A DNA stretch of 64,000 nt from an uncultured Actinomycetes bacterium (GTDB lineage: Bacteria > Actinomycetota > CADDZG01 > WHSQ01): assembly GCA_937863385.1 (NCBI GenBank), contig CALMBW010000008.1, positions 1-64,000 of the forward strand. The letters run 5' to 3'. Numbering within the stretch: position 1 is the first letter of the stretch; the number at the start of each line of letters is the position of its first letter. A program made the translations under genes and the position numbers. Shown in pieces: positions 22,907 to 53,813 of this stretch. Under the pieces are notes generated by a model that was given only the letters and a program-made list of their open reading frames with translations, was not told where the DNA came from and searched no databases.

Positions 22907-25900
22907 GTGAGATCGATGGTTGGACGCACCCTGAACCCGCTGGCCGCCGCCCTTGCCTTTTCGCTGATTTCAGCGCTCGTGGTCGTTGGGGCCATACCCG
23001 CCAAGGCGAACCACACCCCTCGGACACTTGAAGTCACTCCGGAGACGTCCTCGGTTCCCTTCGGGTCCGTGTCGACGACGCTCACGGCGGTGCTGCAGGG
23101 TGGCCCGGCCGACACCACCTCGGGTCCGATCAACATCGACTGGGAGAACGAGAACGACGCCGACGGGGCCTCCCATTCGACGCCGGACGCAACGTGTTCG
23201 GTTCCGGTCGGTCAAACGGAGTGTTCGATCACGGCGACCGGGTCTGGGACCGACTACTGGCGAGTCTGGATCGACCACGACAACGTTCAGAGCACGGTCG
23301 AGGCAGACCTGAACGAAGAGCGGATCTCAGATCCGGGAACCGACTGCAATCAGGCTCAGGACGAGGCGGCCGACTGTGAAGAAGACCCGATCTTCGGGGA
23401 CGCTACGAACCCGGGAACCGGGTGTGCGCTCGCTCCGAGCGCTACAGAACCGGATTGCACCGACGTGGTCCGTGTCAGCTTCACCAGCGAGGCTGCATCT
23501 GCAACCTTCCTTGACTGTGACGATGCGACCGGTCCCGACACCGAGCGAGAGACCAACCCCGACACGTCTGACCGGCCCAACTCTGTCGATGACCCGGAGG
23601 CGGACCAGCCCTCGACCGAGGACTACAGCTGTTCGGTCAGGGACCAGTTCGGCAACCGCATGTCCGGGCAGACGGTCCGGGCCGAGATCGAGAACGGTAT
23701 CAATGATCCCGACCCGAACAACGAAGAGAACGTTCCCTCTTATACGACTCCCGACTACAGCTGTACGACGGGTTCGATCCCATTTCTAGGGGCGCAGCCT
23801 TGCACGATCGCGGTGACCCAGGCCGAGAACGAGCTCGGGACCGCCGAGATCTGCTTCTGGGTGGAGGACAATAACCCGTTGACTAATGAAGGCCAGACCC
23901 TTTGTGCGTCGGAGCCGACCAACGAGGCTCAACTGGCAGACGGTTCGGACAGCGGCAACGATCTGGCCGACCAAACGGAACTGACCTGGGAGAAAGAGGA
24001 GAACTTCATCCTCGATTGCACCCCTGAAACGGACACCAATCCCGCAGGGACCGCCCACAAAGTGACCTGCACCGCAACCTCTCCCACCACTGGACAAAGG
24101 GTGAGCGGCACCCTTGTGAGAGCCGAGGCAACTGGCGCGAACGATCCCGATACTTCCAACTCACCACAGGTCTCGGACTTCAGTTGCACGACCGATTCCA
24201 GCGGCTCGTGTACGTTCACCCATGGCCCTGGAGGGACCGGGTCCACGACGGCCAAGGGCACGACGACCTACCGGGCATGGATCGATGACCGTAACCCAGA
24301 GCCCACCGGCAACGATGGGATCGATGAAGATGTCGACACCGGCGAAGGTCGCAACGAAGCGACTGCTCCTGGCGACCGGCAAGAGCCCGACAACACGGAC
24401 GTGGTCGAGAAGGAGTGGACGGACGCTCCATCCAAGTTGACGATGACGCCCGAGAGTGACACGGCGAACGTGGGGGAATGCAACCCCTTCACCATCACTG
24501 TTACGGACGCTCAGGACCAACCTCTCGCCGGTTTGACGATCGATGTCGAGCAGGTTCACGACCTCGCCGCTAACAACACAGCGAGCGACGAGCCCGATGT
24601 CGGCTTCTGCGTTCCGAGCACTGGACCGAACCCATCGGGGGTCGACGAGAGTAAGGGCGACCGCCAGCCGGCGGCCGATCCGAACCAGCAGAACGCTGAC
24701 GAAGAAGACCCGGACAACGCGGGGACGGCTGGTGGCGAGACCGCCCAGACGACCGACTCGCAGGGCAAGGTGACGATCGGTGTGAACATCACTGCCGCGA
24801 ACAACTCGAACGGTGGCGGCAATGTGACGGTGACCGCTTTCTTTGACCCCAATGACAACGATGATCCCGATTCGGGCGAACCGAAGGACACGTCCACCAA
24901 GACGTGGACACCGGCCGCCCCGGCGGGGGGTAGGACGATCGACTGTGAACCTGAGGCTGCGACGACCCCCACGGATGAAGATCACACCGTGACATGCACG
25001 GTCCGCGACTCTGCGGGCCAACCCGATCCGGGCGAGGAGGTCACGTTCACTGAAACCGGTGCCGGGACGCTCGCTTCCTCACCGCAGGTGACGACGAATA
25101 CTCTGGGGCAGGCGACCGTGACGGTCACCTCCGATGAGGCCGGCACTCAGAACATCACGGGAACGCTGACGAACTCCACTCAGAACGAGCCGGATACCGA
25201 CGAGTGCCAGAAGGCTGCGAACGACCCCCAGGGTGCTCCTGCCGGACAGTGCTCGGACGAGGTCACCAACACCTGGGAAGAGGTTCAACAGCCCCAGTGC
25301 TCTGATGGTGAGGACAATGACGGAGACGGGGACATCGACGATGCCGATGACGGCTGCTCATCTCCCGAGGACGATGATGAATCTGATGATCCGCCTCCTC
25401 CCCCCGCCAAGTGCCCGGGCTATGAGAACGATCCTCGGAACCAGATCGTAGGCACCGAGAACGGCGAATCCCTCGAGGGCACGGAAGGTGACGACATCAT
25501 CTGTGGTCTCGGAGGAAACGACACGATCGACGGCAAGGGCGGCAATGACCTGATCCTCGGTGGCGACGGCAATGACGATCTCCGTGGTGGTGACAACGAC
25601 GATCAGATCTACGGAGAAGGCGGAAACGATGTGATCCGTGGCGACTCCGGCAACGACCGACTCTTCGGCGGTGACAACAACGACACCATCAAGGGCAACT
25701 CGGGCAACGACAAGCTCGGAGGCAACGGCGGCAAGGACGTCCTGATCGGTGGCAGTGGGGATGACAAGCTTGCCGGCGGCGCTGGAAACGACACCCTTAG
25801 GGGTGGCGGCGGCCGTGATCAGCTCCGTGGTGGATCTGGTCGGGACACCCTGCGAGGTGGCCGTGGCCGTGACGAGTTCTACGGAGGCAGTGGGAGGGAC

Positions 25901-25942
25901 AGCTGTGATGCAACGAGGAAAGAGAAAGCCAAGAGCTGCTGA
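22907..25942 (+). CDS. Large secreted cysteine-rich Ig-like protein with C-terminal RTX calcium repeats (paralog 1)
   Basis: 1011 aa from GTG 22907 with GGAGG upstream. Signal peptide: LNPLAAALAFSLISALVVVG with cleavage near AKANH. Residues 40-790 form successive beta-sandwich modules of about 100-150 residues, each starting with an L/D-x-x-x-PE-x-D/T pattern (LEVTPETSS, FILDCTPETDT, LTMTPESDT, RTIDCEPEAAT) and holding Cys pairs; the last resembles bacterial Ig-like domain 1 (GEEVTFTETGAGTL). A linker DGEDNDGDGDIDDADDGC and EDDDESDDPPPPP follows. The last 170 residues carry about a dozen GG-x-G-x-D nonapeptide repeats that would bind calcium. No sortase signal, hydrolase motif or type I secretion gene is present. 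Probably a surface or extracellular adhesin-like protein. Confidence 0.85.
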   Translation: MRSMVGRTLNPLAAALAFSLISALVVVGAIPAKANHTPRTLEVTPETSSVPFGSVSTTLTAVLQGGPADTTSGPINIDWENENDADGASHSTPDATCSVPVGQTECSITATGSGTDYWRVWIDHDNVQSTVEADLNEERISDPGTDCNQAQDEAADCEEDPIFGDATNPGTGCALAPSATEPDCTDVVRVSFTSEAASATFLDCDDATGPDTERETNPDTSDRPNSVDDPEADQPSTEDYSCSVRDQFGNRMSGQTVRAEIENGINDPDPNNEENVPSYTTPDYSCTTGSIPFLGAQPCTIAVTQAENELGTAEICFWVEDNNPLTNEGQTLCASEPTNEAQLADGSDSGNDLADQTELTWEKEENFILDCTPETDTNPAGTAHKVTCTATSPTTGQRVSGTLVRAEATGANDPDTSNSPQVSDFSCTTDSSGSCTFTHGPGGTGSTTAKGTTTYRAWIDDRNPEPTGNDGIDEDVDTGEGRNEATAPGDRQEPDNTDVVEKEWTDAPSKLTMTPESDTANVGECNPFTITVTDAQDQPLAGLTIDVEQVHDLAANNTASDEPDVGFCVPSTGPNPSGVDESKGDRQPAADPNQQNADEEDPDNAGTAGGETAQTTDSQGKVTIGVNITAANNSNGGGNVTVTAFFDPNDNDDPDSGEPKDTSTKTWTPAAPAGGRTIDCEPEAATTPTDEDHTVTCTVRDSAGQPDPGEEVTFTETGAGTLASSPQVTTNTLGQATVTVTSDEAGTQNITGTLTNSTQNEPDTDECQKAANDPQGAPAGQCSDEVTNTWEEVQQPQCSDGEDNDGDGDIDDADDGCSSPEDDDESDDPPPPPAKCPGYENDPRNQIVGTENGESLEGTEGDDIICGLGGNDTIDGKGGNDLILGGDGNDDLRGGDNDDQIYGEGGNDVIRGDSGNDRLFGGDNNDTIKGNSGNDKLGGNGGKDVLIGGSGDDKLAGGAGNDTLRGGGGRDQLRGGSGRDTLRGGRGRDEFYGGSGRDSCDATRKEKAKSC

Positions 25943-26041: not shown

Positions 26042-29000
26042 GTGATGCAGCGATTGGTTCGGGGTCGACTAACGACGTTCTTCGTCGTTCTAGCGATGAT
26101 GATGTCTGTGGTGCTGGTCGTTACCCCGAGGGCCGAAGCCGTTCACGGAGACGCCTGTCTGGACGTCACCCCGGAGACCGACACGAACATGACGGGCACC
26201 ACCCACACGATGACCGCCACGCTAAAAACGGCTACACCAGTCCCTCCGTCATGTGGCGGCGCTGATAAGACGGCCGGGGCCGGAGGCGTCACGGTTGAAT
26301 TCGAAGTAGTGGGTCCCAGGAATGCCGAGGCCGGTTCCTGCGACATCCCCGCTGGACAATCCTCATGTCAATTCGGCTACGTGGACAGACAGGATGGCAG
26401 TGACGGGACACAGGCAACCGACACGATCCGGGCATGGATCGACGGTCATGAGGATCCAACTGAAACGCCCAATGAGTCTGAGCCCCCGGAGGTGTTGACG
26501 GAGCCGGATGGCGCGGACGCGGTCACCAAGACCTGGGCCACGCCGAGCTCGATCGATTGTGACGACCAGAGCGGGGACGATACCGAGACCAACCCGCTGA
26601 CCGCGCCGAACAACACGGAGACGTACACGTGCACGGTGCAAACGGGCACCGGCAGCACCAAGACCGCCCTCGGCAACGCATCGGTGTATGGGGAGAACGA
26701 GAACGGGATCAACGACCCCGACGCTACCGATGGGGCGAGCTACGCCTCGCCGGACTATTCCTGCACCACAGGCAACGACGGCACCTGTCAGATCACCGTG
26801 AGTCCTTCTGAGTCCGAGACCGGCACCGCCGAGATCTGCTTCTGGGTCTCCGATACGGCGGGCAGCCCGGCTGATGGAGCAACGGTTTGCGGCTCCGAGG
26901 CGACCGACGATACCGAGAATGATGACAGGGCCGATCAGGTAGAGAAGACCTGGCAGGCGAGAGCGGCCACTAGCGGCGGGCTCGATGCAGAACCCGAATT
27001 CGACCGGGAGGCAACCGGGACAAACACCCTCGTCGACGTCACGGTCTACGACCAGTTCGGTGATGCATTCTCGGGGAGCACCGGCGTGGCGCTCGAGTTC
27101 TTCGAGGGGTCGGCCGTCGATACCGATGGGAACAGCCCCTCATCTCCCGACAAGACTTGCACCACATCAGGCTCTTCGACCTGTTCGATCCAGTACACCT
27201 CGAACAACCCTGGTAAGGACCGGATGTGTGTATGGATCAACTCAGATCCGGCGATGAGCGGTAACCGTGACAACGGCACCTGTGACGGAGAGAGTCTGTC
27301 TGACGGCGACGATGCCGCCAACGAGTTTGACGCACCCTCGCCTCCGAGCGACGACGTTGACGTCATAGAAAGGGAATGGTTCACGCCTGCTGCGACTACG
27401 GCGACCCGTCTTGACTGTGAACCCGAGTCGGATACCAACCCAACGGGGACCGGTCACACGGTCACCTGTACCGCACGGGATGGCCAGAACAACCTCATCG
27501 GTGGAGCGAACATCGACGCGGAGGCGACGGGGACGAACGATCCGGATAACGGCGAGACCTTCCAGACCCCAGATTTCTCGTGTGTCACCACGACCCAGGG
27601 CACCTGCTCGTTCACTCATGGCCCCGGAGGGCAGGGCCAGACGAACAACGCTGGGAACACGGTCTACCGGGTTTGGATCGACCGGGATGGCGAGGATCAG
27701 ACGATCACCGAGATCGATCAGGCGGAGACCAGGACCCAGGTTGACAACGACGGCACCGATGTGGTCGAGAAGGCGTGGACTGCGAACCCTGCCTCGTTGA
27801 CCATGACCCCGGACGCGGACACCGCGACGGTGGGCGAGTGCAACCCGTTTACGGTCACGGTTCGGACCTCAAACAACCAGCCGGCACAAGGTGCAGTTAT
27901 CGACGTTGAGCAGGTCCATGCTCGAGCGTCCAACGGGACGAACAATGACGAGCCCATCGTTTCCTTCTGCACCCCCACGACCGGACCAAATCCCTCCGGG
28001 GTCGATACCACCAAGGGCGATCTGAGTTCGCCGAACGAGAACCCGGATAACGCCGGCACCGCAGGAGGCGAAACCGAGAAGCAAACGGATGGGAACGGTC
28101 AAGTCACCTTCGGGATCCGTGTCTCCGCGGCGAACGGAGCCGACGGCAGCGGTCAGGTGACCGTCAATGCTTTCTTTGACCAGGACGAGGACGACGATCC
28201 GGATTCCACCGAACCGCGGGATTCAGCGATAAAGACATGGGAAACGGCCGCCTCCGGCGGACGGACCATCGACTGTGTGCCCGAAACTGCTACCACCGAG
28301 ACGGACGACCAGCACGTCGTGTCCTGCACCGTGCTTGGTAGTGACGGGCAGCCTGACTCCGGCATCTCCGTGACGTTCACCGAGACCGGTCCCGGAACGT
28401 TCGTGAGCGAGAGCCAGACCAGTACTAATACGGCTGGACAGGTCTCGGTGACCGTTGGTTCGGCGGAGCTGGGTACGCAGACGATCACCGGGACGATCAC
28501 GAATTCAACGCAGAACGAGCCCGACACGGATGAGTGCGACCGAACGGCCAATGACCCGTCTGGCGCTCCTTCTGGGGTTTGTTCTGACTCAGTCACCAAT
28601 ACGTGGACCGAGCCCGAGCCAGAGCCAGAGCCTGCGCAGTGCGACGACGGGCTGGACAATGACAACGACGGAGACGCCGACTTCCCGGCCGATGAGGGCT
28701 GCGACTCGACTACCGACGATGACGAGAGCGACGACCCTCCGGTCGACGAGAAGTGTCCGGGCTACGAGAATGCGCCGGGGAACCATGTCGTTGGAACCGA
28801 GGGTCCGGACATCTTGGTGGGCACCGAGGGTGATGACATCATCTGCGGTCTGGGTGGCAACGACCAGATCGATGGACTCGGTGGCAACGATGTGATCACC
28901 GGAGGATCGGGTAACGACACCGTCGATGGTGGTGATGGCGCCGACGACATCTTGGCCCAGGATGGCGATGACACGGTCTCCGGTAACGAGGGCAACGACG

Positions 29001-29323
29001 AGATCATCGGTGGTCCCGGCGATGACGAGCTTTCGGGCAACGGAGGCAAAGACGTGCTCCTCGGTGGCGGTGGCAACGACGTTCTCAAGGGCAATGCCGG
29101 GAACGACTTCGCCAACGGCGCCGGTGGTAACGACCGTCTCAATGGTGGTTCCGGTAACGACAACCTGAAGGGCGGAAAGGGCAACGACGCCATAAAGGGT
29201 GGACCGGGCAACGACACCATCAACGGCGGTAGAGGTAAGGATGGCTGCCATGGCGGCGGCGGCAAGGACACCATCAAGAACTGCGAGGGTGCCTCTAGCG
29301 CCACCCGGCGCCGCTACTTCTAG
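26042..29323 (+). CDS. Large secreted cysteine-rich Ig-like protein with C-terminal RTX calcium repeats (paralog 2)
   Basis: 1093 aa from GTG 26042 (ATG 26045 is equally possible) with GGAGG upstream. Signal peptide: LTTFFVVLAMMMSVVLVVTP with cleavage near AEAVH. The module order matches paralog 1 with one extra module; blocks such as VGECNPFTVTV, IDVEQVHA, TGPNPSGVD and ITGTITNSTQNEPDTDEC are almost the same in both. A Glu-Pro run (EPEPEPEPAQC) and a thrombospondin-type-3-like DGLDNDNDGDADFPADEGC precede about a dozen GG-x-GND repeats, ending GGGGKDTIKNCEG. Compared with paralog 1 the lineages have clearly diverged, so the duplication is not recent. Confidence 0.85.
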   Translation: MMQRLVRGRLTTFFVVLAMMMSVVLVVTPRAEAVHGDACLDVTPETDTNMTGTTHTMTATLKTATPVPPSCGGADKTAGAGGVTVEFEVVGPRNAEAGSCDIPAGQSSCQFGYVDRQDGSDGTQATDTIRAWIDGHEDPTETPNESEPPEVLTEPDGADAVTKTWATPSSIDCDDQSGDDTETNPLTAPNNTETYTCTVQTGTGSTKTALGNASVYGENENGINDPDATDGASYASPDYSCTTGNDGTCQITVSPSESETGTAEICFWVSDTAGSPADGATVCGSEATDDTENDDRADQVEKTWQARAATSGGLDAEPEFDREATGTNTLVDVTVYDQFGDAFSGSTGVALEFFEGSAVDTDGNSPSSPDKTCTTSGSSTCSIQYTSNNPGKDRMCVWINSDPAMSGNRDNGTCDGESLSDGDDAANEFDAPSPPSDDVDVIEREWFTPAATTATRLDCEPESDTNPTGTGHTVTCTARDGQNNLIGGANIDAEATGTNDPDNGETFQTPDFSCVTTTQGTCSFTHGPGGQGQTNNAGNTVYRVWIDRDGEDQTITEIDQAETRTQVDNDGTDVVEKAWTANPASLTMTPDADTATVGECNPFTVTVRTSNNQPAQGAVIDVEQVHARASNGTNNDEPIVSFCTPTTGPNPSGVDTTKGDLSSPNENPDNAGTAGGETEKQTDGNGQVTFGIRVSAANGADGSGQVTVNAFFDQDEDDDPDSTEPRDSAIKTWETAASGGRTIDCVPETATTETDDQHVVSCTVLGSDGQPDSGISVTFTETGPGTFVSESQTSTNTAGQVSVTVGSAELGTQTITGTITNSTQNEPDTDECDRTANDPSGAPSGVCSDSVTNTWTEPEPEPEPAQCDDGLDNDNDGDADFPADEGCDSTTDDDESDDPPVDEKCPGYENAPGNHVVGTEGPDILVGTEGDDIICGLGGNDQIDGLGGNDVITGGSGNDTVDGGDGADDILAQDGDDTVSGNEGNDEIIGGPGDDELSGNGGKDVLLGGGGNDVLKGNAGNDFANGAGGNDRLNGGSGNDNLKGGKGNDAIKGGPGNDTINGGRGKDGCHGGGGKDTIKNCEGASSATRRRYF

Positions 29324-44155: not shown

Positions 44156-45073
44156 ATGACGCGCCGTCCTAACGGCAACCGACGCGCCCTGGTGGGGCTC
44201 GTCCTGGCTACGGTGTTCGCCGTACCGGCGATCGCCTACGCTCAAACGCCGGCCCCCCAGCCGGTGATCGATTCAGCTCCGGAGCGCGTTGCGTACGCCA
44301 GCAACGTGACCATCAAGGGTCACGTCGAGAACGCGACACCCGGCGATGAGGTGCGCCTGCAACAACAGCGCGGCGACATGCAATGGCGCACCGTTGCTAC
44401 CCGTGTGCTTGACGACGAGACGACGTTTCGCTTTCGACGAGGTGACGTCCGCAAGACCACCAGGTATCGGGTTGCCCACGCCGGTGTGAGCGATGTCGAG
44501 ACCTTTAGCCAAGCAGTCAAGGTCCGTGTGAAGCCCAGGATCACCCTGCGGGTGCGTCCGCGTGACATCTTCCAGGGCCGTCGCGTGAAGTTGGCAGGCC
44601 GCGTCTACCCGGCTGTAGAGGGGCGAGAGATGCTGTTGCAACAGAAGGTGCAGGGAACGTGGCACACGATCCAGCGCGTGAACGTCGGCGATGGTGAATT
44701 CCGCACCAAGTTCCGGGCCCGCCACAGAGGCCAGCGCAAGGTGCGGGCGGTCTTCGCCGGCGACACACTGAACGACGGGGCCAAGGTTACGAAGCCATTC
44801 ACGATCTACAACCCGGAGCTCGCTACCTGGTACGGCCCCGGCTTCTACGGGAACTCGACCGCATGTGGCAAGACCTTGACGACCGAGACACTGGGCGTTG
44901 CGCACCGCACCCTGCCCTGTGGAACCAAGGTGAGTCTCCTCTACCAGGGCCGCACCATCACCGTCTCGGTGATCGACCGCGGGCCTTACACGGACGCCGA
45001 CTGGGATCTCACTCAAGAGACCGCCGAACGCTTGGGGTTCTCAGGCACGGACGAGGTTGGAGTCACACACTAG
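44156..45073 (+). CDS. Secreted protein with Ig-like repeats and C-terminal RlpA/double-psi beta-barrel domain
   Basis: 305 aa from ATG 44156 with GAGGAG upstream. Signal peptide: RALVGLVLATVFAVPAIAYA with cleavage at AYA-QT. Residues 35-215 make two beta-sandwich modules (VAYASNVTIKGHVENATPGD and PRDIFQGRRVKLAGRVYPAV). Residues 220-300 are RlpA-like: ATWYGPGFYGNSTACGKTLT, GVAHRTLPCGTKVSLLYQGR, and VSVIDRGPYTDADWDLT. The two Cys probably pair. The DPBB Asp in VIDRGPY marks the lytic-transglycosylase-like site, so binding or cleavage of peptidoglycan is expected. Confidence 0.87.
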   Translation: MTRRPNGNRRALVGLVLATVFAVPAIAYAQTPAPQPVIDSAPERVAYASNVTIKGHVENATPGDEVRLQQQRGDMQWRTVATRVLDDETTFRFRRGDVRKTTRYRVAHAGVSDVETFSQAVKVRVKPRITLRVRPRDIFQGRRVKLAGRVYPAVEGREMLLQQKVQGTWHTIQRVNVGDGEFRTKFRARHRGQRKVRAVFAGDTLNDGAKVTKPFTIYNPELATWYGPGFYGNSTACGKTLTTETLGVAHRTLPCGTKVSLLYQGRTITVSVIDRGPYTDADWDLTQETAERLGFSGTDEVGVTH

Positions 45074-45089
45074 CCGGCTGGTTTCAAAG

Positions 45090-45116
45090 CCGCCCGGCCG
45101 TGACGGCCGGGCGGAT
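45090..45116 (+). terminator. GC-rich hairpin after the RlpA-like gene
   Basis: CCGCCCGGCCG (45090-45100), loop TGA, CGGCCGGGCGG (45104-45114); no T tract, so a weak or Rho-assisted terminator. Confidence 0.55.
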
Positions 45117-45157
45117 ACCACGTTGGGGCACGGGGCTCGATATAGGATTGGGCCACC

Positions 45158-45673
45158 TTGGGCAGAGCGTTGGTGTTGAACGCCTCTTACCAGCCGCTGT
45201 GCGTTGTGCCGGTACGGCGGGCGCTGGTCCTTGCCCTGAAAGAGAAGGCCGATGTTCTCCACACCAACGGTGCGATCTTCAGGTCGGCGGATCTCGAGTA
45301 CAGAGCCCCCACGGTCGTGAAGCTCAGATACTTCGTCAAAGTGCCATACCGGGCACGTGCTTCCATGTCGCGGCGGGCGGTCTTCGTCCGGGATGACTTC
45401 GAGTGCCAGTACTGCGGCCGGCCCGCCGAGAACGTCGATCACATCGTCCCTCGCAGCAAGGGTGGGGGACATACCTGGGACAACGTCGTTGCCGCATGCA
45501 GGCCGTGCAACTCCCGCAAGGAGAACCATCACCTCGGTGACGTGGGCATGAAGCTGAGGCGGCCCCCCCTCGCCCCTCATGACAGTGTGTGGATCCGGGT
45601 CGCGGTCGAGAACGTAGACCCCACCTGGGAGCAGTACCTCGAGATGACCAAACGCCGCCACGCCTTCGCGTAG
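45158..45673 (+). CDS. HNH endonuclease-family protein
   Basis: 171 aa from TTG 45158, with a -10-like TAGGAT at 45143-45148. The N-terminus RALVLNASYQPLCVVPVRRA and the HNH motif ECQYCGRPAENVDHIVPRSK then WDNVVAACRPCNSRKENHH define a family common and usually single-copy in actinobacteria. The two Cys-x-x-Cys pairs (CQYC, CRPC) bind the structural zinc and DHIVPRS gives the catalytic His. Target DNA and function are unknown. Confidence 0.88.
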   Translation: MGRALVLNASYQPLCVVPVRRALVLALKEKADVLHTNGAIFRSADLEYRAPTVVKLRYFVKVPYRARASMSRRAVFVRDDFECQYCGRPAENVDHIVPRSKGGGHTWDNVVAACRPCNSRKENHHLGDVGMKLRRPPLAPHDSVWIRVAVENVDPTWEQYLEMTKRRHAFA

Positions 45674-45835
45674 CGACCTTTGGAGGTGCTTAACTCGTAG
45701 CATGGCGCCGTAGGGGTCTTTGAGTGCGGCGCTACTGCTCTGTGGTACCAGCTACAGCAAGCTGAATGATCGCCCAGCAAGGTCCGACGGAGCAACTCAG
45801 GGAAACCTCCACCTGCCGCCTAGTCACCGCCCTTG

Positions 45836-46288
45836 CTAGACATCCCGGCGCCCCACCGTCGCCAGGTTTTGAAGGTCGTCCTCGGGGATCATCGATTCGA
45901 TCAACGGGAACAACTCTTGTTCTTCGAACCGGACATGTTCGGTGAGGAGCGTCGCAACGCGATCGAGGAGTTCGGGATCGACATCGCCGGAGGAGAGCTG
46001 GCGCTTGACGGTGCGTATCATCGCGTGCAGCCGTAGGTGATCGCTTACGGCGCGCAGTATCAGATCGCGCGCTTGCTCCTCGTCTACCAGGGGAGCGAAG
46101 AACAACTCCTCTTCCTCGTGGAAGTGCCGGATCGCACGTCCGAAGTAGAAGTTGACGAAGTCATTCACCGTATTCCGCGCTGCGGCCTCGTCCTCAAGTT
46201 TGGCGACATCCTTGAGCCGCCGCGCTTGAGCGAGTGCGTGGTGATGATCGTGTGTGAGGGGGGTGAGTGCATCGTGTCGGCGAGGCAT
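45836..46288 (-). CDS. Hemerythrin/HHE-domain protein
   Basis: 150 aa reading leftward from ATG 46288. The four-helix iron-binding pattern is present: LTHDHHHALAQARR, IRHFHEEEELFFAPL, SDHLRLHAMIRTVKRQL and LTEHVRFEEQELFPLIES, giving the His/Glu ligands of a di-iron site. May bind oxygen or nitric oxide. It is divergent from the molybdoenzyme operon, which would make sense if that operon makes or uses nitrogen oxides. Confidence 0.9.
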   Translation of the reverse strand: MPRRHDALTPLTHDHHHALAQARRLKDVAKLEDEAAARNTVNDFVNFYFGRAIRHFHEEEELFFAPLVDEEQARDLILRAVSDHLRLHAMIRTVKRQLSSGDVDPELLDRVATLLTEHVRFEEQELFPLIESMIPEDDLQNLATVGRRDV

Positions 46289-46524
46289 TCCCTTGATCTC
46301 CTATCGCTCGTTGGCCGTCGGTTCCAAGCTTTCGTGAACGTCGTCGTTCCCTCTTGGTTCCCTATGCCCGTGATATCCGACACCGTTCCGGCCGGTCAGG
46401 GCCGGATGGCCCCCCTGATGCATTGCCCACGGCCCATGGAGCGCGGCCCTCATCTCGGGATGATGGCCGTTGGAGTTGCCCCCAGGGAGCCGTTGTTCGG
46501 TACCCTGACGGCTATGGAGGAGGC

Positions 46525-47577
46525 GTGAAGCGCCGGGCCCGGCCTCAGGGCTGGCTGAGCGATGTAGACCCCACCGCCAGCGCGATCGGATCTACTGCTG
46601 CCGTCCTTCTCACGGCTGCCATCTATGCGGGCAGCAGGGGTTTGCGGAATTTCGATGCAGCACTGATCGGGTACGCGACCGCGACGATCTTCCTCGCGTT
46701 CGGGGTCACCTACAGGTACGTCGTCTGGGTGCAGAGCCCCCCGACCCGTCGCTACCTCGTGAAGGGATGGAAGGCGTTCCTCTCGTGGCGTAACTTCCGG
46801 CGCTTCCCGACCTTGGTGCCGAAGGCCGTCGTGTCCAACCTTGCGTTTCAGACCTTCATCAAGGAGCGGGGTATGGGGAGGTGGGCCGCCCATCAGGCGC
46901 TCTTCTGGGGAGTTGTCGGAGCGACCTTGATCACGTTCCCGTTGACGTTCGGCTGGATTCACTTCCGGTCTGCTGCGGGAACGGAGAGCCACTACGAGAT
47001 GTACATCTTCGGCATCAAGACGGTCACGTTCGACGCCTTGTCCTGGCTGGGTTGGCTCACGTTCCGCGGGCTCGACATCACCGCCGTGTTGGTCATAGCT
47101 GGATGTGCCTATTTCCTGTGGCGAAGGTTCCGAGACCGCGAGGCGATGACCGGCCAGCACCTCGCCCATGACCTGATGCCCCTGATCGCGCTGGTGGCGA
47201 TCTCGGTGACGGGATTGCTGCTGACGTTCTCTAGCGCGCTGTTGAAGGGTCGCTACTACGATTTCCTCGCCCTACTGCATATGGGGACCGTCGTGTTGAC
47301 GCTCGTGTTCATCCCCTTCGGCAAGTTCTTCCACGTGATCCAACGCCCGGCCAGCATCGGGGTTCAGATCTACAAGCGCACGAGTCTCGAAGACAAGGGC
47401 CCTTTCCATTGCAAGCGATGTGGTGCCGCCTTCGAAACGCAGACCTATGTCGAGGATCTGGAGGAGACGATGAGCGAACTGGGTCTCGGCTTCGAGGGTT
47501 GGGCCGAGCACTGTCCGCGCTGCAAGCGGGTCGAGCGAGGTATCGCATACCGCGCGCACGTGAAGGAAGGCTTTTGA
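46525..47577 (+). CDS. Membrane cytochrome b-like subunit with C-terminal Cys4 motif
   Basis: 350 aa from GTG 46525 with GGAGGAGG upstream; an upstream extension lacks coding character. Six membrane helices. The His residues near helix ends (WAAHQALF, FGWIHF, GQHLAHDLMPL, LALLHMGTVVLTL, FGKFFHVIQRP) resemble the two-heme b arrangement of NarI/HdrE-type subunits, and IPFGKFFHVIQRP is close to the C-terminal NarI signature. The cytoplasmic tail has CKRCG and CPRCK, a probable zinc or Fe-S site. First gene of the redox operon; it overlaps the molybdoenzyme gene by one base. Function is inferred. Confidence 0.7.
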   Translation: MKRRARPQGWLSDVDPTASAIGSTAAVLLTAAIYAGSRGLRNFDAALIGYATATIFLAFGVTYRYVVWVQSPPTRRYLVKGWKAFLSWRNFRRFPTLVPKAVVSNLAFQTFIKERGMGRWAAHQALFWGVVGATLITFPLTFGWIHFRSAAGTESHYEMYIFGIKTVTFDALSWLGWLTFRGLDITAVLVIAGCAYFLWRRFRDREAMTGQHLAHDLMPLIALVAISVTGLLLTFSSALLKGRYYDFLALLHMGTVVLTLVFIPFGKFFHVIQRPASIGVQIYKRTSLEDKGPFHCKRCGAAFETQTYVEDLEETMSELGLGFEGWAEHCPRCKRVERGIAYRAHVKEGF

Positions 47578-49865
47578 TGAAAGGGTCGCGCAGAGGGACG
47601 ATCGAGAAGGCCCCAGGCATCGGCGATTTCCGCCAGGCGGGCGCCCAACCGGCGGCCGGATGGACGACCCACGAGAAGGATGAGCGGCTCGTCCCCACCC
47701 ATTGCTGCTTCTGTGGGGTGCAGTGCGGCATGTATCTGCGGGTTTCGACCGATGGGCGCGTCTTCGGGGTCGAACCACGCGACCACGACATCAACAAGAT
47801 GAAGCTTTGCCCGAAGGGTGTAACCGCCTACCAGCAGGTGAACCACCCGGACCGTCTCACGCAGCCGCTGATGCGATCGCAACGCGGGGAGCCGCTGCGC
47901 CCGGTGTCCTGGGATGAGGCTCTCGATCGGGTGGTATCGGAGATCCGCAGGATCCAGGAGACCTATGGGCACGACGCGTTCGGTGTGTATTCAGGCTCAA
48001 GCATGACCACGGAGAAGACCTATCTCGTAGGCAAGTTCGCGCGGGTGGCTCTGGGGACCGCAAACGTCGATTACAACGGGCGGCTCTGCATGGTGTCGGC
48101 GGGCGCAGGCAACAAGAAGGCTTTCAATGTGGACCGCGCCGCGAACCCGTGGTCCGACATGCTGCTCACCGACGTCATCTTGGTTGCGGGAGCGAATGTG
48201 GCTGAGTGCTTTCCGGTGATGACCCAATACTTCTGGGCGGCACGCGACCGCGGTGCCAAGCTGATCACCGTCGACCCCAGGGAGACCGCCCTGGCTCGCA
48301 CCGCCGATATCCACGTGGGTCTGAGACCGGGCACGGATGCTGCCTTCTTCAACGGGGTGTTGCACGTGATCGAGCGGGACGGCCTGATCGATGAGCGCTT
48401 CATCGCCGAGCGCACGGTTGGTTGGGACGAGGTGCGTGACGTGGTGGCCGATTACACCCCGGAACGTGCCGGCAACATCTGTGGGCTCGATCCGGCTCTC
48501 ATCGAGAAGGTCGCCCGGATGTGGGGAGAGGCCGATAAGGCGATGGCGTTCCACGCTCGTGGTATCGAACATCACATCCAGGGCGTCGGCAACGTCCTTA
48601 CGGTTATCGATCTGGTGCTGGCCACGGGTCAGATCGGTGCCCCGGGCAAGGGCTACGGGACCATCACCGGTCAAGGTAACGGTCAAGGGGGCCGCGAGCA
48701 CGGGCAGAAGTGCGATCAGTTGCCGGGCCAACGCTCGATCGATGATCCGGAGGCGCGGTCCTACGTGGCTCAGGTATGGGGGATCGATGAGAGCGAACTG
48801 CCTCAGAAGGGTCTCACCGCGGTCGAGATCATCCACGCTGCAGAAGCGGGTGACGTAAAGGGCCTCATCGGGTTGTGCAACAACCCACTCGTGTCGATGC
48901 CGAAGGGGAACCGGATCAGGCGCGGCTACGATGCGCTCGAGTTCCATTGCCAACTGGACTTCTTCCTGTCGGAAACCGCCGAGCGAGCTGATGTCGTTCT
49001 GCCCACAACCGCGTGGGCCGAGGACGAGGGTGTCACCACCAATGCCGAGGGGCGGATCGTCAAGCACAACAAGGCGACGGAGCCACCCGAAGGAGTGCGC
49101 ACGGACTGGTGGGTCATCTGCGAGATAGCCCGCCGCCTCGGACGACATGCCGACAAGTTCAGCTTCGATTCACCCCGGGCGATCTTCGAAGAATTACGTG
49201 TCGCCTCCAAAGGAGGCTTCGCCGACTACCACGGGGTCACCTATGAGCGTATCGAGGAGACCGGAGGGATCTTCTGGCCGTGTCCCTCGGAAGATCACCC
49301 CGGCACACCGCGCCTGTTCGAGGACCGCTTCTTCCATCCTGACGGCAAGGCCCGCTTCACCGCGGTGAAGTGGATACCCCCGGCCGAAGAACCTGACGAG
49401 GAGTTCCCCATGCGTCTGACGACCGGCCGCACCGTTGCTCACTACCTGTCGGGCAACCAGACCCGGCGGATCGGAGCTCTGGTGGAGCAGGCCCCCCGCC
49501 CGTGGGTCGAGATCCACCCCTCGCTCGGCTTCGCGAACGGTGATCCGGTAAAGGTGGTAACCAGGCGCGGCGAAGTCACCTATCCGGCCCTCGTCGTATC
49601 GACGATCAGACCCGATACCGCCTTCGTCCCGTATCACTGGGCGTCTCCGGCGGCAGCGAACGATCTCACGGTCGACGATCTCGACCCCACTTCCAAGATC
49701 CCCGAGTTCAAGGTGTGCGCCTGCCGTTTGGAGCAGGGGGCCGAGGTCACGGTGGTCCCGTTGCCCCCGGTCGAACCTGGTAAGACCCCCTACTCGGATG
49801 AGATGGGCTCGACCGACGACCGGCGGCCGCCGACCGCCCCTCAGGGCAGGGGGACCGCGCGATGA
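47577..49865 (+). CDS. Molybdopterin oxidoreductase, assimilatory-nitrate-reductase-like
   Basis: 762 aa from ATG 47577, which overlaps the TGA of the previous gene. N-terminal [4Fe-4S] motif HCCFCGVQCGMYLRV with LCPKG (residues about 40-85). Mo-bis-MGD core: the probable Mo-ligand Cys in NGRLCMVSAGAG, GANVAECFPV, TGQIGAPGKGYGTITGQGNG, QKCDQLPGQRSI, the C-terminal molydopterin-binding domain RLTTGRTVAHYLSGNQTRR and PAAANDLTVDDLDPTSKIPEFK. The overall pattern is closest to NasA/NarB nitrate reductases, but the usual FAD/ferredoxin partners are replaced by the Rieske and four-cluster ferredoxin. Substrate not proven. Confidence 0.85.
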   Translation: MKGSRRGTIEKAPGIGDFRQAGAQPAAGWTTHEKDERLVPTHCCFCGVQCGMYLRVSTDGRVFGVEPRDHDINKMKLCPKGVTAYQQVNHPDRLTQPLMRSQRGEPLRPVSWDEALDRVVSEIRRIQETYGHDAFGVYSGSSMTTEKTYLVGKFARVALGTANVDYNGRLCMVSAGAGNKKAFNVDRAANPWSDMLLTDVILVAGANVAECFPVMTQYFWAARDRGAKLITVDPRETALARTADIHVGLRPGTDAAFFNGVLHVIERDGLIDERFIAERTVGWDEVRDVVADYTPERAGNICGLDPALIEKVARMWGEADKAMAFHARGIEHHIQGVGNVLTVIDLVLATGQIGAPGKGYGTITGQGNGQGGREHGQKCDQLPGQRSIDDPEARSYVAQVWGIDESELPQKGLTAVEIIHAAEAGDVKGLIGLCNNPLVSMPKGNRIRRGYDALEFHCQLDFFLSETAERADVVLPTTAWAEDEGVTTNAEGRIVKHNKATEPPEGVRTDWWVICEIARRLGRHADKFSFDSPRAIFEELRVASKGGFADYHGVTYERIEETGGIFWPCPSEDHPGTPRLFEDRFFHPDGKARFTAVKWIPPAEEPDEEFPMRLTTGRTVAHYLSGNQTRRIGALVEQAPRPWVEIHPSLGFANGDPVKVVTRRGEVTYPALVVSTIRPDTAFVPYHWASPAAANDLTVDDLDPTSKIPEFKVCACRLEQGAEVTVVPLPPVEPGKTPYSDEMGSTDDRRPPTAPQGRGTAR

Positions 49866-50431
49866 TGAACAGGACGCTGTTCATCGACCCGGGTCGTTGC
49901 ATCGGGTGTCAAGCTTGTGTGGCGGCCTGCCGCGAGTGCGATTCCCATCGCGGTCGAACCATGATCCACCTCGACTACGTCGATGAGGGCAACTCCGCAG
50001 CCGCCATGCCCACGGTCTGCATGCATTGCGAGGATCCGGTTGCCCCGTGCGCCCAGGTGTGTCCTGCCGACGCCATCCCGGTTGGACCCGACGGGATCGT
50101 GCACACTGCTGCTAAGGAGCGTTGCATCGGGTGTGAGAACTGCGTGCACGCGTGCCCCTTCGGAGTGCCGAAGTTGGACCTGACCGAGATGCTTCAGTAC
50201 AAATGCGACATGTGCTACGACCGCACGTCCCGAGGCTTGTCGACGATGTGTGCCACGGTCTGCCCCACCGGAGCGATCTTCTACGGTTCCTACGAGGAAC
50301 TCCTCGCCGACAGACCGCATTCGCGCGCATCCGATCTGTTCGGCTTCAGCGACTCCCTGGTGCAGACGGGATGCGCGATGGTCGTGCCGGCGGGTCGTGA
50401 ATCAGTATCCGTCCCGGGCGGCTACGTCTGA
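49862..50431 (+). CDS. Four-cluster [4Fe-4S] ferredoxin-type electron-transfer subunit
   Basis: 189 aa, ATGA overlap. Sixteen cysteines in the DmsB/NrfC pattern: CIGCQACVAACREC, CMHCEDPVAPCAQVCP, CIGCENCVHACPFG, CDMCYDRT with CATVCP. It passes electrons to the molybdoenzyme. The C-terminal 40 residues extend beyond the ferredoxin fold. Confidence 0.92.
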   Translation: MMNRTLFIDPGRCIGCQACVAACRECDSHRGRTMIHLDYVDEGNSAAAMPTVCMHCEDPVAPCAQVCPADAIPVGPDGIVHTAAKERCIGCENCVHACPFGVPKLDLTEMLQYKCDMCYDRTSRGLSTMCATVCPTGAIFYGSYEELLADRPHSRASDLFGFSDSLVQTGCAMVVPAGRESVSVPGGYV

Positions 50432-50910
50432 TGAGAGACGATCATGCCCACAGACGACTCCTCGATCGCATCCGCGAGGACCGGTTGGTTACGCGGCGGG
50501 ACTATCTGCGCTTGTTGGCAACGGTCTCGGGAGGTCTGCTGGCGGGAACGGCAGCGGTGGCGTCGGGGATCTTCAGACGGCGCGGGTCGGGAACGACAAC
50601 GGAGAAGAAGGTCGCGGATTCCGTCGAGCCGGGAGACTCGTTCACTTTCGATTACCCGGGTGAGGATGACCCGGCGATCGGGGTGCGGTTGGCCGATGGC
50701 TCGATCGTTGCCTATTCGTCCGTGTGCACGCATCTTGCGTGCGCGGTCCTGTGGATCAAAGAGAAGAACGAGCTCGAATGTCCGTGTCACGATGGCATCT
50801 TCAACGTTCGGACGGGCGAGGTCGAAGCGGGTCCACCCCCTCGTCCGTTGCCCAGGATCGCCTTGGAGGAGCGCCCTGACGGAATCTATGCGGTGGGAGT
50901 GATCGAGTGA
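50431..50910 (+). CDS. Rieske [2Fe-2S] protein with TAT-like signal
   Basis: 159 aa. N-terminal VTRRDYLRLLATVSGGLLAG is a twin-arginine-like signal or anchor. The Rieske cluster is held by CTHLAC and CPCHDGIF (C-x-H and C-x-x-H), then PLPRIALEERPDGIYAV. Overlaps the ferredoxin gene by one base. It should sit on the outer face of the membrane and connect the cytochrome to the FeS/Mo subunits, or receive electrons from them. Confidence 0.9.
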   Translation: MRDDHAHRRLLDRIREDRLVTRRDYLRLLATVSGGLLAGTAAVASGIFRRRGSGTTTEKKVADSVEPGDSFTFDYPGEDDPAIGVRLADGSIVAYSSVCTHLACAVLWIKEKNELECPCHDGIFNVRTGEVEAGPPPRPLPRIALEERPDGIYAVGVIE

Positions 50911-51152
50911 ACCGGAGCCGCGGCCGACTCGATGCTCGTGAGAACGCAAGGGATCATTCGGATCTCGCCGCCTCGCTCAACGCCCGCATCGCTATCGTTG
51001 CCTTCATCATCGTGTGCCAGCTGTGGGCTTTGACGGCCGCGCTCGATGCGTGGCTCGGAGCTTCTCCAGCAGAGGTGTGGTTGCTCCTGGGCTTCCAGGT
51101 GCTGGCGTTCCTGTCTGTGCTGTTGATATCTCGATCTTCGCCGAAGGAGTAA
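50907..51152 (+). CDS. Small two-helix membrane protein of the redox operon, 81 aa
   Basis: ATGA-type overlap with the Rieske gene (GTG 50907). Helices: IAIVAFIIVCQLWALTAALD and VWLLLGFQVLAFLSVLLIS. N-terminus is charged. Members of this type (DUF6755-like by memory) recur in similar operons. It could be an accessory or anchor subunit. Confidence 0.65.
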   Translation: MNRSRGRLDARENARDHSDLAASLNARIAIVAFIIVCQLWALTAALDAWLGASPAEVWLLLGFQVLAFLSVLLISRSSPKE

Positions 51153-51158
51153 CCCGTT

Positions 51159-51773
51159 ATGCCTCGTGACCCGCGCTATCCGATCGGTGGGGAGATGGCC
51201 GACGTACTGCGTGGGCTGCTGGAGCGGCTCCGTCTGGCGGCCCTCACCGAGCGCTTCGGCACGAGAGCCGTACTCGGCGTCTTCGCTTTCATCAACGGGC
51301 TGTTGTCGATCGGGATCATGTCGGCGGCTGCGGTGATCACCGGTCAACCGCTGATCTTCCCGTCGCTCGGCCCTACCGCCTTCCTGCTGTTCTACACGCC
51401 TCGAGCCCCCGCGGCGTCGCCCCGTAACACCGTGATCGGTCACCTGATCGGGGTCATCGCCGGCTATCTCTCCTTGGTGGTCTTCGGTCTCACCGATAGC
51501 GGACCGGCCTTCCAGGAGGGGGTTACGTGGGCCCGAGTGGGAGCGGCCGCTCTGTCTCTCGCCTTGACGTCGGGGTTCATGGCCTGGCTCTTGGCTCCGC
51601 ATCCTCCCGCCGGGGCGACCACCTTGATAGTGAGCCTCGGCATCATGCCGAGACCCTCGCAGCAAGCCTTCCTCATGCTCGCGGTGATCCTGCTGGTGCT
51701 TCAAGGTCTGATCATCAACCGAGCAGCGGGCGTCGACTACCCACTGTGGCGCGCTGAGGCCTCTCAGCACTGA
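51159..51773 (+). CDS. HPP-family integral membrane protein
   Basis: 204 aa from ATG 51159 with AAGGAG upstream. Four membrane helices with the HPP pattern: ITGQPLIFPSLGPTAFLLFY, APAASPRNTVIGHLIGVIAG, and LLAPHPPAGATTLIVSLGIM, which holds the His-Pro-Pro motif. Plant and cyanobacterial HPP proteins transport nitrite, which supports a nitrogen-oxyanion role for the operon. Last gene before the first 122-bp repeat. Confidence 0.87.
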   Translation: MPRDPRYPIGGEMADVLRGLLERLRLAALTERFGTRAVLGVFAFINGLLSIGIMSAAAVITGQPLIFPSLGPTAFLLFYTPRAPAASPRNTVIGHLIGVIAGYLSLVVFGLTDSGPAFQEGVTWARVGAAALSLALTSGFMAWLLAPHPPAGATTLIVSLGIMPRPSQQAFLMLAVILLVLQGLIINRAAGVDYPLWRAEASQH

Positions 51774-51795
51774 CTGGGATCCCCCGTGCCACCTA

Positions 51796-51917
51796 CCGGT
51801 CGGGTCCGTCGTTGGGACTAGGCGCGGCCCCCCGGTAGGACTATTTCTGTCGGCGTCCGTGAGCGCTACCGATCGGTGGGGGGTCGCGGCTGGTTGGGGC
51901 ATCGACACGGGGGCGAA
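51796..51917 (+). repeat. 122-bp structured direct repeat, copy A
   Basis: Matches copy B (53029-53150) at 121 of 122 positions; the only difference is A51905 against G53138. Starts 22 bp after the HPP stop. Predicted pairing: CGCGGCCCCCC (51823-51833) with GGGGGGTCGCG (51878-51888), then GGTA/TACC and GGAC/GTCC inside. No protein-coding frame is supported. Confidence 0.85.
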
Positions 51918-52009
51918 TGAGCGCCAAGGTTGGAGCACATGTGGACAATGATGGGGCAGAGTATGGGACCGTTAGTTGTAGCGAGATCTACTTCCGGAGG
52001 ATTCGTTAG

Positions 52010-52900
52010 GTGCCTCTGAGACTCTGTTTCGCTCTCGTCCTGGCCCTTGCGTCCTGCAACGGCGCCCAAAGTGAGCCAATCTCAGAACGACCTCATCAAG
52101 ATTCAGAGAGTCTGGACTTGCCGATCCTTTTCGGGTCCGATCAAGATGTTTGGCGGATGAGCAACGATGGGCTGATCGCCCAAGCGATCAGCGAGACGGA
52201 CGCCCTCGAGTTGAATCCTGAGTGGTCGGCTGACGGAGAACAGGTGGTGTTCGAACGCCTGCCTAACCCCGACGCAGCGTCCGAGTACGACATCTACCGG
52301 ATGGATGCCGACGGGACAGATGTTCAGCTAGTGGCAGACGTGGCAGACAGAGAGTTCAATCCAAGTTGGTCTCCTGACGGGGAGTGGATCGTCTTTCAAG
52401 TCGAAAAGCGTGAGCAGTTGGATCTTTTCGTTGTCCGACCTGACGGATCGGACCTGAAACGACTTACCAAGAGCCCGTCTTCCGAATCGAACCCACAATG
52501 GTCGCCGGATGGGCGGCTTATCGCTTTCACTTGCACAGGGAGGAAGAGCAACATCTGCCTGATGAGGGCCGATGGAAGTAGGAGACGGAAGATCACATCT
52601 GGGCCCGGTTCGAGCACGGTCGCGTCTTGGAGTCCGTCGGGCAAACGATTGGTGTTCGGGTATTACCCGCCTCATGATGGGCTGCCGCGGTTACGCATCA
52701 TCAGCAAGGATGGTTCCGGACTTCAGCCTGTAGGTAGGAGGAGTGACCAGTTCCCGATCTGGGGGCCCGATGGCTCGATCATGTTCCACACGGTTGGAAC
52801 CGATGGTGTCCCGCAGGGGATCTGGGTGATGAAGCCGGATGGAACCGCCAGGAAGCAGATCAGAACCACCGGGATAGCTACGGATTGGCTGGAGGACTAG
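52010..52900 (+). CDS. TolB-like beta-propeller lipoprotein
   Basis: 296 aa from GTG 52010 with GGAGGA upstream. Lipoprotein signal: LRLCFALVLALASC with lipid-anchored Cys16. Then at least five PD40/TolB repeats of the form N-P-x-WS-x-DG-x-x-I/V-x-F: NPEWSADGEQVVFE, NPSWSPDGEWIVFQ, NPQWSPDGRLIAFT, VASWSPSGKRLVFG, FPIWGPDGSIMFHT, giving a six-bladed propeller. No enzymatic domain. It is bounded by the two 122-bp repeats and has no functional link to either side. Confidence 0.88.
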   Translation: MPLRLCFALVLALASCNGAQSEPISERPHQDSESLDLPILFGSDQDVWRMSNDGLIAQAISETDALELNPEWSADGEQVVFERLPNPDAASEYDIYRMDADGTDVQLVADVADREFNPSWSPDGEWIVFQVEKREQLDLFVVRPDGSDLKRLTKSPSSESNPQWSPDGRLIAFTCTGRKSNICLMRADGSRRRKITSGPGSSTVASWSPSGKRLVFGYYPPHDGLPRLRIISKDGSGLQPVGRRSDQFPIWGPDGSIMFHTVGTDGVPQGIWVMKPDGTARKQIRTTGIATDWLED

Positions 52901-52960
52901 AGCCCTGCACTAGCCGCTGTGGGTGTGCTCCGTCCCGCTCGCTCAGTTCGATTGGGTAAA

Positions 52961-53020
52961 GCCCCTCAGATCCCGAGCGTGACGCCGTCACGGATCTCGG
53001 CCACGAATATCCCGAGGGGC
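52961..53020 (+). ncRNA. Multi-stem foldable element next to repeat copy B
   Basis: GCCCCTC (52961-52967) pairs with GAGGGGC (53014-53020). Inside are CCGAG (52973-52977) with CTCGG (52996-53000), and GTGAC (52979-52983) with GTCAC (52987-52991) closing a GCC loop. No coding frame. Absent before copy A. Confidence 0.4.
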
Positions 53021-53028
53021 CAACACTT

Positions 53029-53150
53029 CCGGTCGGGTCCGTCGTTGGGACTAGGCGCGGCCCCCCGGTAGGACTATTTCTGTCGGCGTCCGTGAGCGCT
53101 ACCGATCGGTGGGGGGTCGCGGCTGGTTGGGGCATCGGCACGGGGGCGAA
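53029..53150 (+). repeat. 122-bp structured direct repeat, copy B
   Basis: Second copy, 1233 bp from the first. Stem CGCGGCCCCCC (53056-53066) with GGGGGGTCGCG (53111-53121, one G-T wobble); inner GGTA/TACC (53067-53070 with 53100-53103) and GGAC/GTCC (53071-53074 with 53088-53091); ACCGATCGGT bulge. The copy runs straight into an intrinsic terminator, so this copy could give a small RNA or a riboswitch-like leader. Confidence 0.85.
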
Positions 53151-53170
53151 GCCCGGCGTGACGGGCTTTT
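53149..53170 (+). terminator. Intrinsic terminator directly after repeat copy B
   Basis: AAGCCCG (53149-53155), loop GCGTGA, CGGGCTT (53162-53168), then TT. Copy A has no such hairpin. Confidence 0.75.
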
Positions 53171-53272
53171 CGAGTGTTCGAGCCGACTTGCAGCGGCTAT
53201 CGCACGCAAACTCAAGCATTAACAACAACAACACCAGTAACTAATCACAAAGTTGTAATTCACATCCATTTG

Positions 53273-53301
53273 TTGACTCCGGGGGGCGGCCGGGCTTTAC
53301 T
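53273..53301 (+). promoter_or_regulatory. Promoter of the dcw operon
   Basis: TTGACT (53273-53278), 17-bp spacer, TTTACT (53296-53301); start near 53308. Confidence 0.75.
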
Positions 53302-53312
53302 TTGCTTCGAAG

Positions 53313-53347
53313 TGGAGCGAAATGGAGCGTTATGGAGGACAAGGGAG
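53313..53347 (+). promoter_or_regulatory. mraZ: MraZ boxes: four TGGAG-type repeats with 10-bp period
   Basis: TGGAG at 53313, 53323 and 53333, and GGGAG at 53343, each exactly one helical turn from the next and just downstream of the transcription start. This is the arrangement of MraZ operator sites (TGGGN repeats with 5-bp gaps in E. coli), so MraZ probably represses its own operon by binding here. Confidence 0.75.
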
Positions 53348-53381
53348 TCTTCCGGAGCTCGGGCCCAACAAGGGGAGTGCA

Positions 53382-53813
53382 GTGGTCTTCACCGGGGAGT
53401 ACCGGCACACGATCGACGCGAAGGGACGCCTCATCGTCCCGTCGCGGCTGCGCGACCAGCTGGGCGAGAACGAAGTGATGCTCACGATCTGGCCCGAGGG
53501 CTGCATCTCGGTCTGGTCCGGTGAGGAGTGGGACAAGTTGTACGCCCAGCTCCAGGAGCAGCGCCGCAGCGAGAAGGGCAACCGCAAGCTGCAGCGCCGC
53601 CTCTACACGCAGGGCCGGTGGGACCGGGTCGACAAGCAGGGGCGTATCACCGTCCCCGAGCACCTCAAGCAGTGGGCCGGTATCGGCAAGGAAGTGGTGA
53701 TCGCAGGGGTGGGAGACCACGTCGAGATCTGGGAGCCGTCCAAGTACGACGCCGACCAGGGAGACATCGACGAGCAGGGCCTGATCGAACTGTTCGACCA
53801 GTTGGACATCTAA
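53382..53813 (+). CDS. mraZ: Transcriptional regulator MraZ
   Basis: 143 aa from GTG 53382, with AGGGGAG upstream; the ATG at 53322 lies inside the operator repeats and would add a non-family extension. Two SpoVT/AbrB-like halves: FTGEYRHTIDAKGRLIVPSR and RWDRVDKQGRITVPEHLKQW, each with the DKGR-like signature. MraZ forms octameric rings that bind direct repeats and repress the dcw operon. Confidence 0.95.
   Translation: MVFTGEYRHTIDAKGRLIVPSRLRDQLGENEVMLTIWPEGCISVWSGEEWDKLYAQLQEQRRSEKGNRKLQRRLYTQGRWDRVDKQGRITVPEHLKQWAGIGKEVVIAGVGDHVEIWEPSKYDADQGDIDEQGLIELFDQLDI

Follow-up and report, generated by a model that had tools for sequence, protein, structure and literature searches.

A TolB-like gene between two near-identical non-coding repeats upstream of mraZ: a probable case of recent gene insertion

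The repeat pair and its gene neighbourhood

A 122-bp sequence, called the element here, is present in two direct copies on the plus strand of the window, the whole 64-kb stretch of DNA that was analysed. Copy A (51796-51917) begins 22 bp past the stop codon of a gene for an HPP membrane protein (PF04982; 51159-51773, plus strand), is not followed by a terminator, and separates this gene from a TolB-like gene. Copy B (53029-53150) starts 128 bp past the end of the TolB-like gene and lies between it and mraZ. The copies are identical at 121 of 122 bases with a start-to-start spacing of 1233 bp, and a repeat finder extended them to 125 nt (51793-51917 and 53026-53150) with two mismatches (123/125). 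The earlier note on this DNA had described such a pair, non-coding and flanked by HPP, TolB-like and cell-division genes, and this setting was confirmed: Pfam identified the neighbours as HPP, PD40/TolB-like and MraZ, the copies overlap no credible gene, and the minus-strand ORFs that cross them had no Pfam match. Both copies are non-coding.

The pair is also unique in its genome. A search of all 2.77 Mb (27 contigs, E ≤ 10) returned copies A and B and otherwise short chance matches, and no other direct repeat of similar length and identity was found in the 64-kb window. Within the window, 20 bases where the HPP gene starts (51173-51192) also matched the element (E = 0.02), which we attributed to chance.

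Between the copies lies 1111 bp of DNA unrelated to them (51918-53028). Its GC content is 57.8% compared with 62.6% for the window, low enough to rank among the bottom 1.4% of same-size segments, and by tetranucleotide distance it falls within the top 6%. This insert carries a single TolB-like gene (52010-52900, plus strand) encoding a PD40 beta-propeller protein of 296 aa with a lipoprotein-type signal (LALASC). The GC3 of the gene is the ninth lowest among 46 ORFs ranked, one of the lower values belonging to mraZ read out of frame, so that both GC and GC3 of the gene are low, though not extreme for the window. Close homologues were absent from the samples searched. None at E ≤ 1e-30 was present in the other 295 genomes of the phylum sample, the gene was not found in viral contigs, matches on plasmids were distant PD40 proteins below 60% identity, and the insert DNA gave marginal short matches only against 24 genomes of the class. 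The source genome itself carries further PD40 proteins that are 27-41% identical to the TolB-like protein.

A terminator-like hairpin (53149-53170, plus strand; AAGCCCG-gcgtga-CGGGCTTTT) stands directly 3' of copy B. The proposal that copy B runs into an intrinsic terminator and copy A does not was thus upheld for a hairpin whose short U tract has four T only and which was absent from the output of a consensus terminator scan. Just 5' of copy B we observed a nested inverted repeat (52955-53030; GCCCCTCAGATCCCGAG...CCCGAGGGGC) with a fold z-score of -2.2 and no T tract. Past the hairpin comes a region that is conserved upstream of mraZ in family relatives (53195-53381, plus strand) and contains a palindrome, a -35-like GTTGACT and TGGAG boxes; we refer to it as the ancestral mraZ control region. 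It leads into mraZ (53382-53813, plus strand). The longest mraZ ORF opens with the ATG at 53322, which lies within the TGGAG boxes; alignment with relatives suggests that the likely start is GTG 53382 instead.

Predicted folding and RNA readings

The copies had been called strongly foldable, and this part of the original observation, unlike the repeat and its setting, was not borne out by shuffled controls. The RNAfold energy of copy A was -59.8 kcal/mol compared with -56.5 ± 4.0 kcal/mol in dinucleotide shuffles (z = -0.83), and copy B together with the terminator-like hairpin gave z = -1.2, so that the energies (z about -0.8 to -1.2) lie within the shuffle range; the minus strands gave -0.1 and +0.9. 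The long stem that had been pointed out is present, and with G-U pairs allowed it reaches 12 bp, yet it is unremarkable because the GC content of the element (about 71%) accounts for it. A stem of this length was equalled by 12.6% of shuffles.

A structured small RNA or riboswitch at two loci had been put forward as one explanation of the pair but is not supported. No Rfam 15 covariance model reached its gathering score in the window, and none matched up to E = 5 over 51600-53500; the fold does not exceed that of shuffles, and no homologue was found in relatives. A riboswitch aptamer is placed in a 5' leader, and only copy A precedes a gene in this way (the TolB-like gene, by 92 bp), so that the arrangement does not fit both copies. 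A riboswitch is also unlikely because copy B is followed by the terminator-like hairpin and then by mraZ, which has its own conserved promoter region.

A different RNA reading would make the element a structured 3'-UTR, a small RNA or a transcript-stabilising hairpin that ends two transcripts and whose identity selection or gene conversion has preserved. In its favour, both copies sit 3' of a gene that shares their strand, most of the element is enclosed by the predicted fold, and the terminator-like hairpin comes directly after copy B. We nevertheless consider this reading unlikely given the Rfam result up to E = 5, the folding equal to shuffles, the lack of any homologue beyond chance among 100 relatives and among 396 genomes of the phylum, and the absence of the element 3' of the HPP gene in two genomes that share this gene (G007 and G014, see below).

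Searches for homologues of the element

Searches of about 500 further genomes and of phages, plasmids, viral contigs and Rfam gave no homologue of the element beyond chance matches; several of these collections may omit the source genome or its near neighbours. The four best matches among 100 relatives were short (E 0.0045-0.008), and the element was wholly absent from the family relatives. The 396 phylum genomes (E ≤ 1e-4) yielded a single 32-base match, in genome L044. Of the weak matches, which include others in L010, L012 and L013, we inspected those in L044, L069 and L011. The L044 match falls within ORFs on both strands and was rejected as chance; the 600-aa plus-strand ORF over it resembles, by eye, an RNase II/R-type protein. 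The matches in L069 and L011 lie inside long ORFs and were likewise rejected. Phages and plasmids contained no copy, and viral contigs contained no exact 20-mer of the element. One exact 18-mer was found among genome contigs, in a Treponema MAG, where it lies inside ORFs and was also dismissed as chance.

A further possibility is that a small mobile repeat, a non-coding hairpin of the MITE or REP type, inserted once on each side of the TolB-like gene. Like such repeats, the element is short, non-coding, sharply bounded and roughly palindromic throughout, and both of its copies lie in non-coding DNA. MITE and REP sequences occur as multiple dispersed copies, however, whereas here there are just two in 2.77 Mb, neighbouring at 1.2 kb and in the same orientation, and none in other genomes. 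Terminal inverted repeats and target-site duplications were not clear by eye in the flanks. We regard a twice-inserted mobile repeat as improbable.

A lineage-specific block separates the HNH gene from mraZ

In family relatives, a gene for an HNH-endonuclease-like protein adjoins mraZ. This gene is present in the window on the minus strand (45041-45703), where it forms the left border of a block that is specific to this lineage, the ancestral mraZ control region forming the right border. The block spans 45704-53194, from the HNH gene to the mraZ side. The gap between the HNH gene and mraZ is 224-587 bp in seven family genomes (measured between protein matches) and 7.7 kb in the window; the relatives compared at this locus are related to the source at the level of the family, and none belongs to its genus. 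Where the family loci reach far enough, moxR, DUF58 and TgpA-like genes lie beyond. In one genome (G004), the gap is occupied by an IS transposase gene.

Most of the block is a module (45836-51773) that contains a hemerythrin gene, a 407-aa ORF and a gene for a Nas/Fdh-like molybdopterin oxidoreductase, followed by genes for a 4Fe-4S protein, a Rieske protein, an 81-aa ORF and, as the last gene, HPP. HPP proteins are reportedly nitrite transporters, going by the title of one published work. The module genes are together in G014, but away from mraZ, with identities of 81% for HPP, 82% for the oxidoreductase, 78% for the 407-aa ORF and 57% for hemerythrin; MraZ of the same genome is 46% identical. 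At least the last genes of the module are also present in G007, whose HPP is 82% identical. Neither the element nor a TolB-like gene follows HPP in either genome.

Homology to the DNA upstream of mraZ in relatives resumes at about 53195, 45 bp past copy B. Because this homology restarts just past copy B, both copies mark the right edge of the island. The left and right borders of the block share short direct repeats at chance level only, and there is no tRNA in the window that could serve as an attachment site. Among genome contigs, 25 matches to an MraZ pattern were retrieved, none of which could be confirmed as a relative with tblastn.

The TolB-like gene and both copies may have come with the whole island, the copies being arranged as they were in the donor. 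Their position inside the block, at its mraZ-side end, is consistent with this, but the module in G014 and G007 lacks both the TolB-like gene and the element after HPP, and we think such an arrival quite unlikely. The block resembles a genomic island at a recurrent gap in that its genes look transferred and an IS sits in the corresponding gap of G004. It differs from such an island in that there is no tRNA in the window, no integrase among the annotated genes of the block, and repeats that bracket the last gene only, not the whole block.

A proposed gene insertion with duplication at the right end of the island

Taken together, the repeat pair is real, though probably ordinary, and it has the appearance of a scar left by a recently inserted gene, not of a riboswitch or other known RNA. 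Our preferred reading, to which we give about an even chance, is that the lower-GC TolB-like gene was inserted in a way that duplicated the right-end sequence of the island, probably by recombination at the element. In this scenario, the hemerythrin/molybdopterin-oxidoreductase/Rieske/HPP block would first have occupied the short gap between the HNH gene and mraZ, and the original right end of the island, past the HPP operon, would have consisted of the 122-bp element and then the terminator. Further DNA, bringing the gene for one TolB-like lipoprotein together with a single copy of the element, would then have joined at this right end. The simplest route would be for a circular molecule to integrate at the element by one homologous crossover, which would produce the order HPP, element, TolB gene, element, terminator, mraZ. 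We infer this order of events and the circle and crossover step from the present arrangement; a circle, a recombinase gene or a donor molecule for the insertion was not found. The element itself would be untranslated 3'-end DNA that has no conserved function.

Single-crossover (Campbell-type) integration similarly leaves a near-identical homologous stretch, in the same orientation, on each side of a foreign-looking segment. Unlike products of that kind, the 1111-bp insert holds no replication, transfer or recombinase gene, and neither donor nor circle was seen.

The earlier note had also envisaged recombination or att-like sites that let a TolB-gene cassette insert between the HPP gene and the dcw operon. 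The insertion finds support in outline, with a lower-GC insert that lacks a close homologue in the sampled relatives and stands at the right edge of the island; the att-like sites do not. An integron-like cassette system, in which the unit would be a gene plus its downstream repeat and the element its site-specific recombination site, can be compared directly. One gene followed by one imperfect palindrome of about 120 bp (here 122 bp) is cassette-like, and the length falls within the 57-141 bp of attC sites (PMC3053210). In attC sites, an RYYYAAC inverse core site and a GTTRRRY core site bound a palindrome (PMC3053210), whereas neither motif occurs on either strand of the 170-bp stretches around both copies. 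No integron integrase exceeded the curated cut-off: TIGR02249 gave 16 matches in the source genome, all of them below it and attributable to generic tyrosine recombinases, and 14 control genomes also match below the cut-off. There is, moreover, a single gene-plus-repeat unit and no array. An integron-like origin is accordingly very unlikely.

It is more doubtful still that the element represents a new type of recombination site that captures single genes without an adjacent recombinase, at an island edge upstream of the cell-division cluster. In rough order of likelihood, the remaining rivals to the insertion are a conserved RNA, a small mobile repeat, arrival with the whole island, and a new recombination site. 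As to the argument that near-perfect identity in non-coding DNA demands either recent duplication or strong constraint, recent duplication suffices and strong constraint need not be invoked.

If the insertion took place as proposed, the locus would be one more case of a foreign-looking gene held within direct repeats, of use chiefly as a sign of recent gain. It would also be a predicted site of spontaneous gene loss, where RecA-type recombination between the copies would be expected to delete the TolB-like gene, so that a single copy remains. Researchers of the dcw cluster may take an interest in the differing insertions that this family carries between the HNH gene and mraZ, a 7.7-kb block in the window and an IS in G004.

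Other observations in the window

Eight family relatives share, in alignment, the palindrome upstream of mraZ (WATYACA-N4-YGTRATT; 53243-53260), with only a partial match in one. Of 24 class genomes, 18 contain the pattern, with at most three matches per strand, and a reversed-pattern control gave no match. Nine other sites of the palindrome, viewed with the ORFs around them, have various genes as neighbours; judged by eye from protein starts alone, one site precedes ParA/ParB-like genes and another lies near a histone-like gene. Elsewhere in the window, two large adjacent ORFs (22907-25942 and 26042-29323) encode RTX calcium-binding repeats and Big_1 Ig-like domains.
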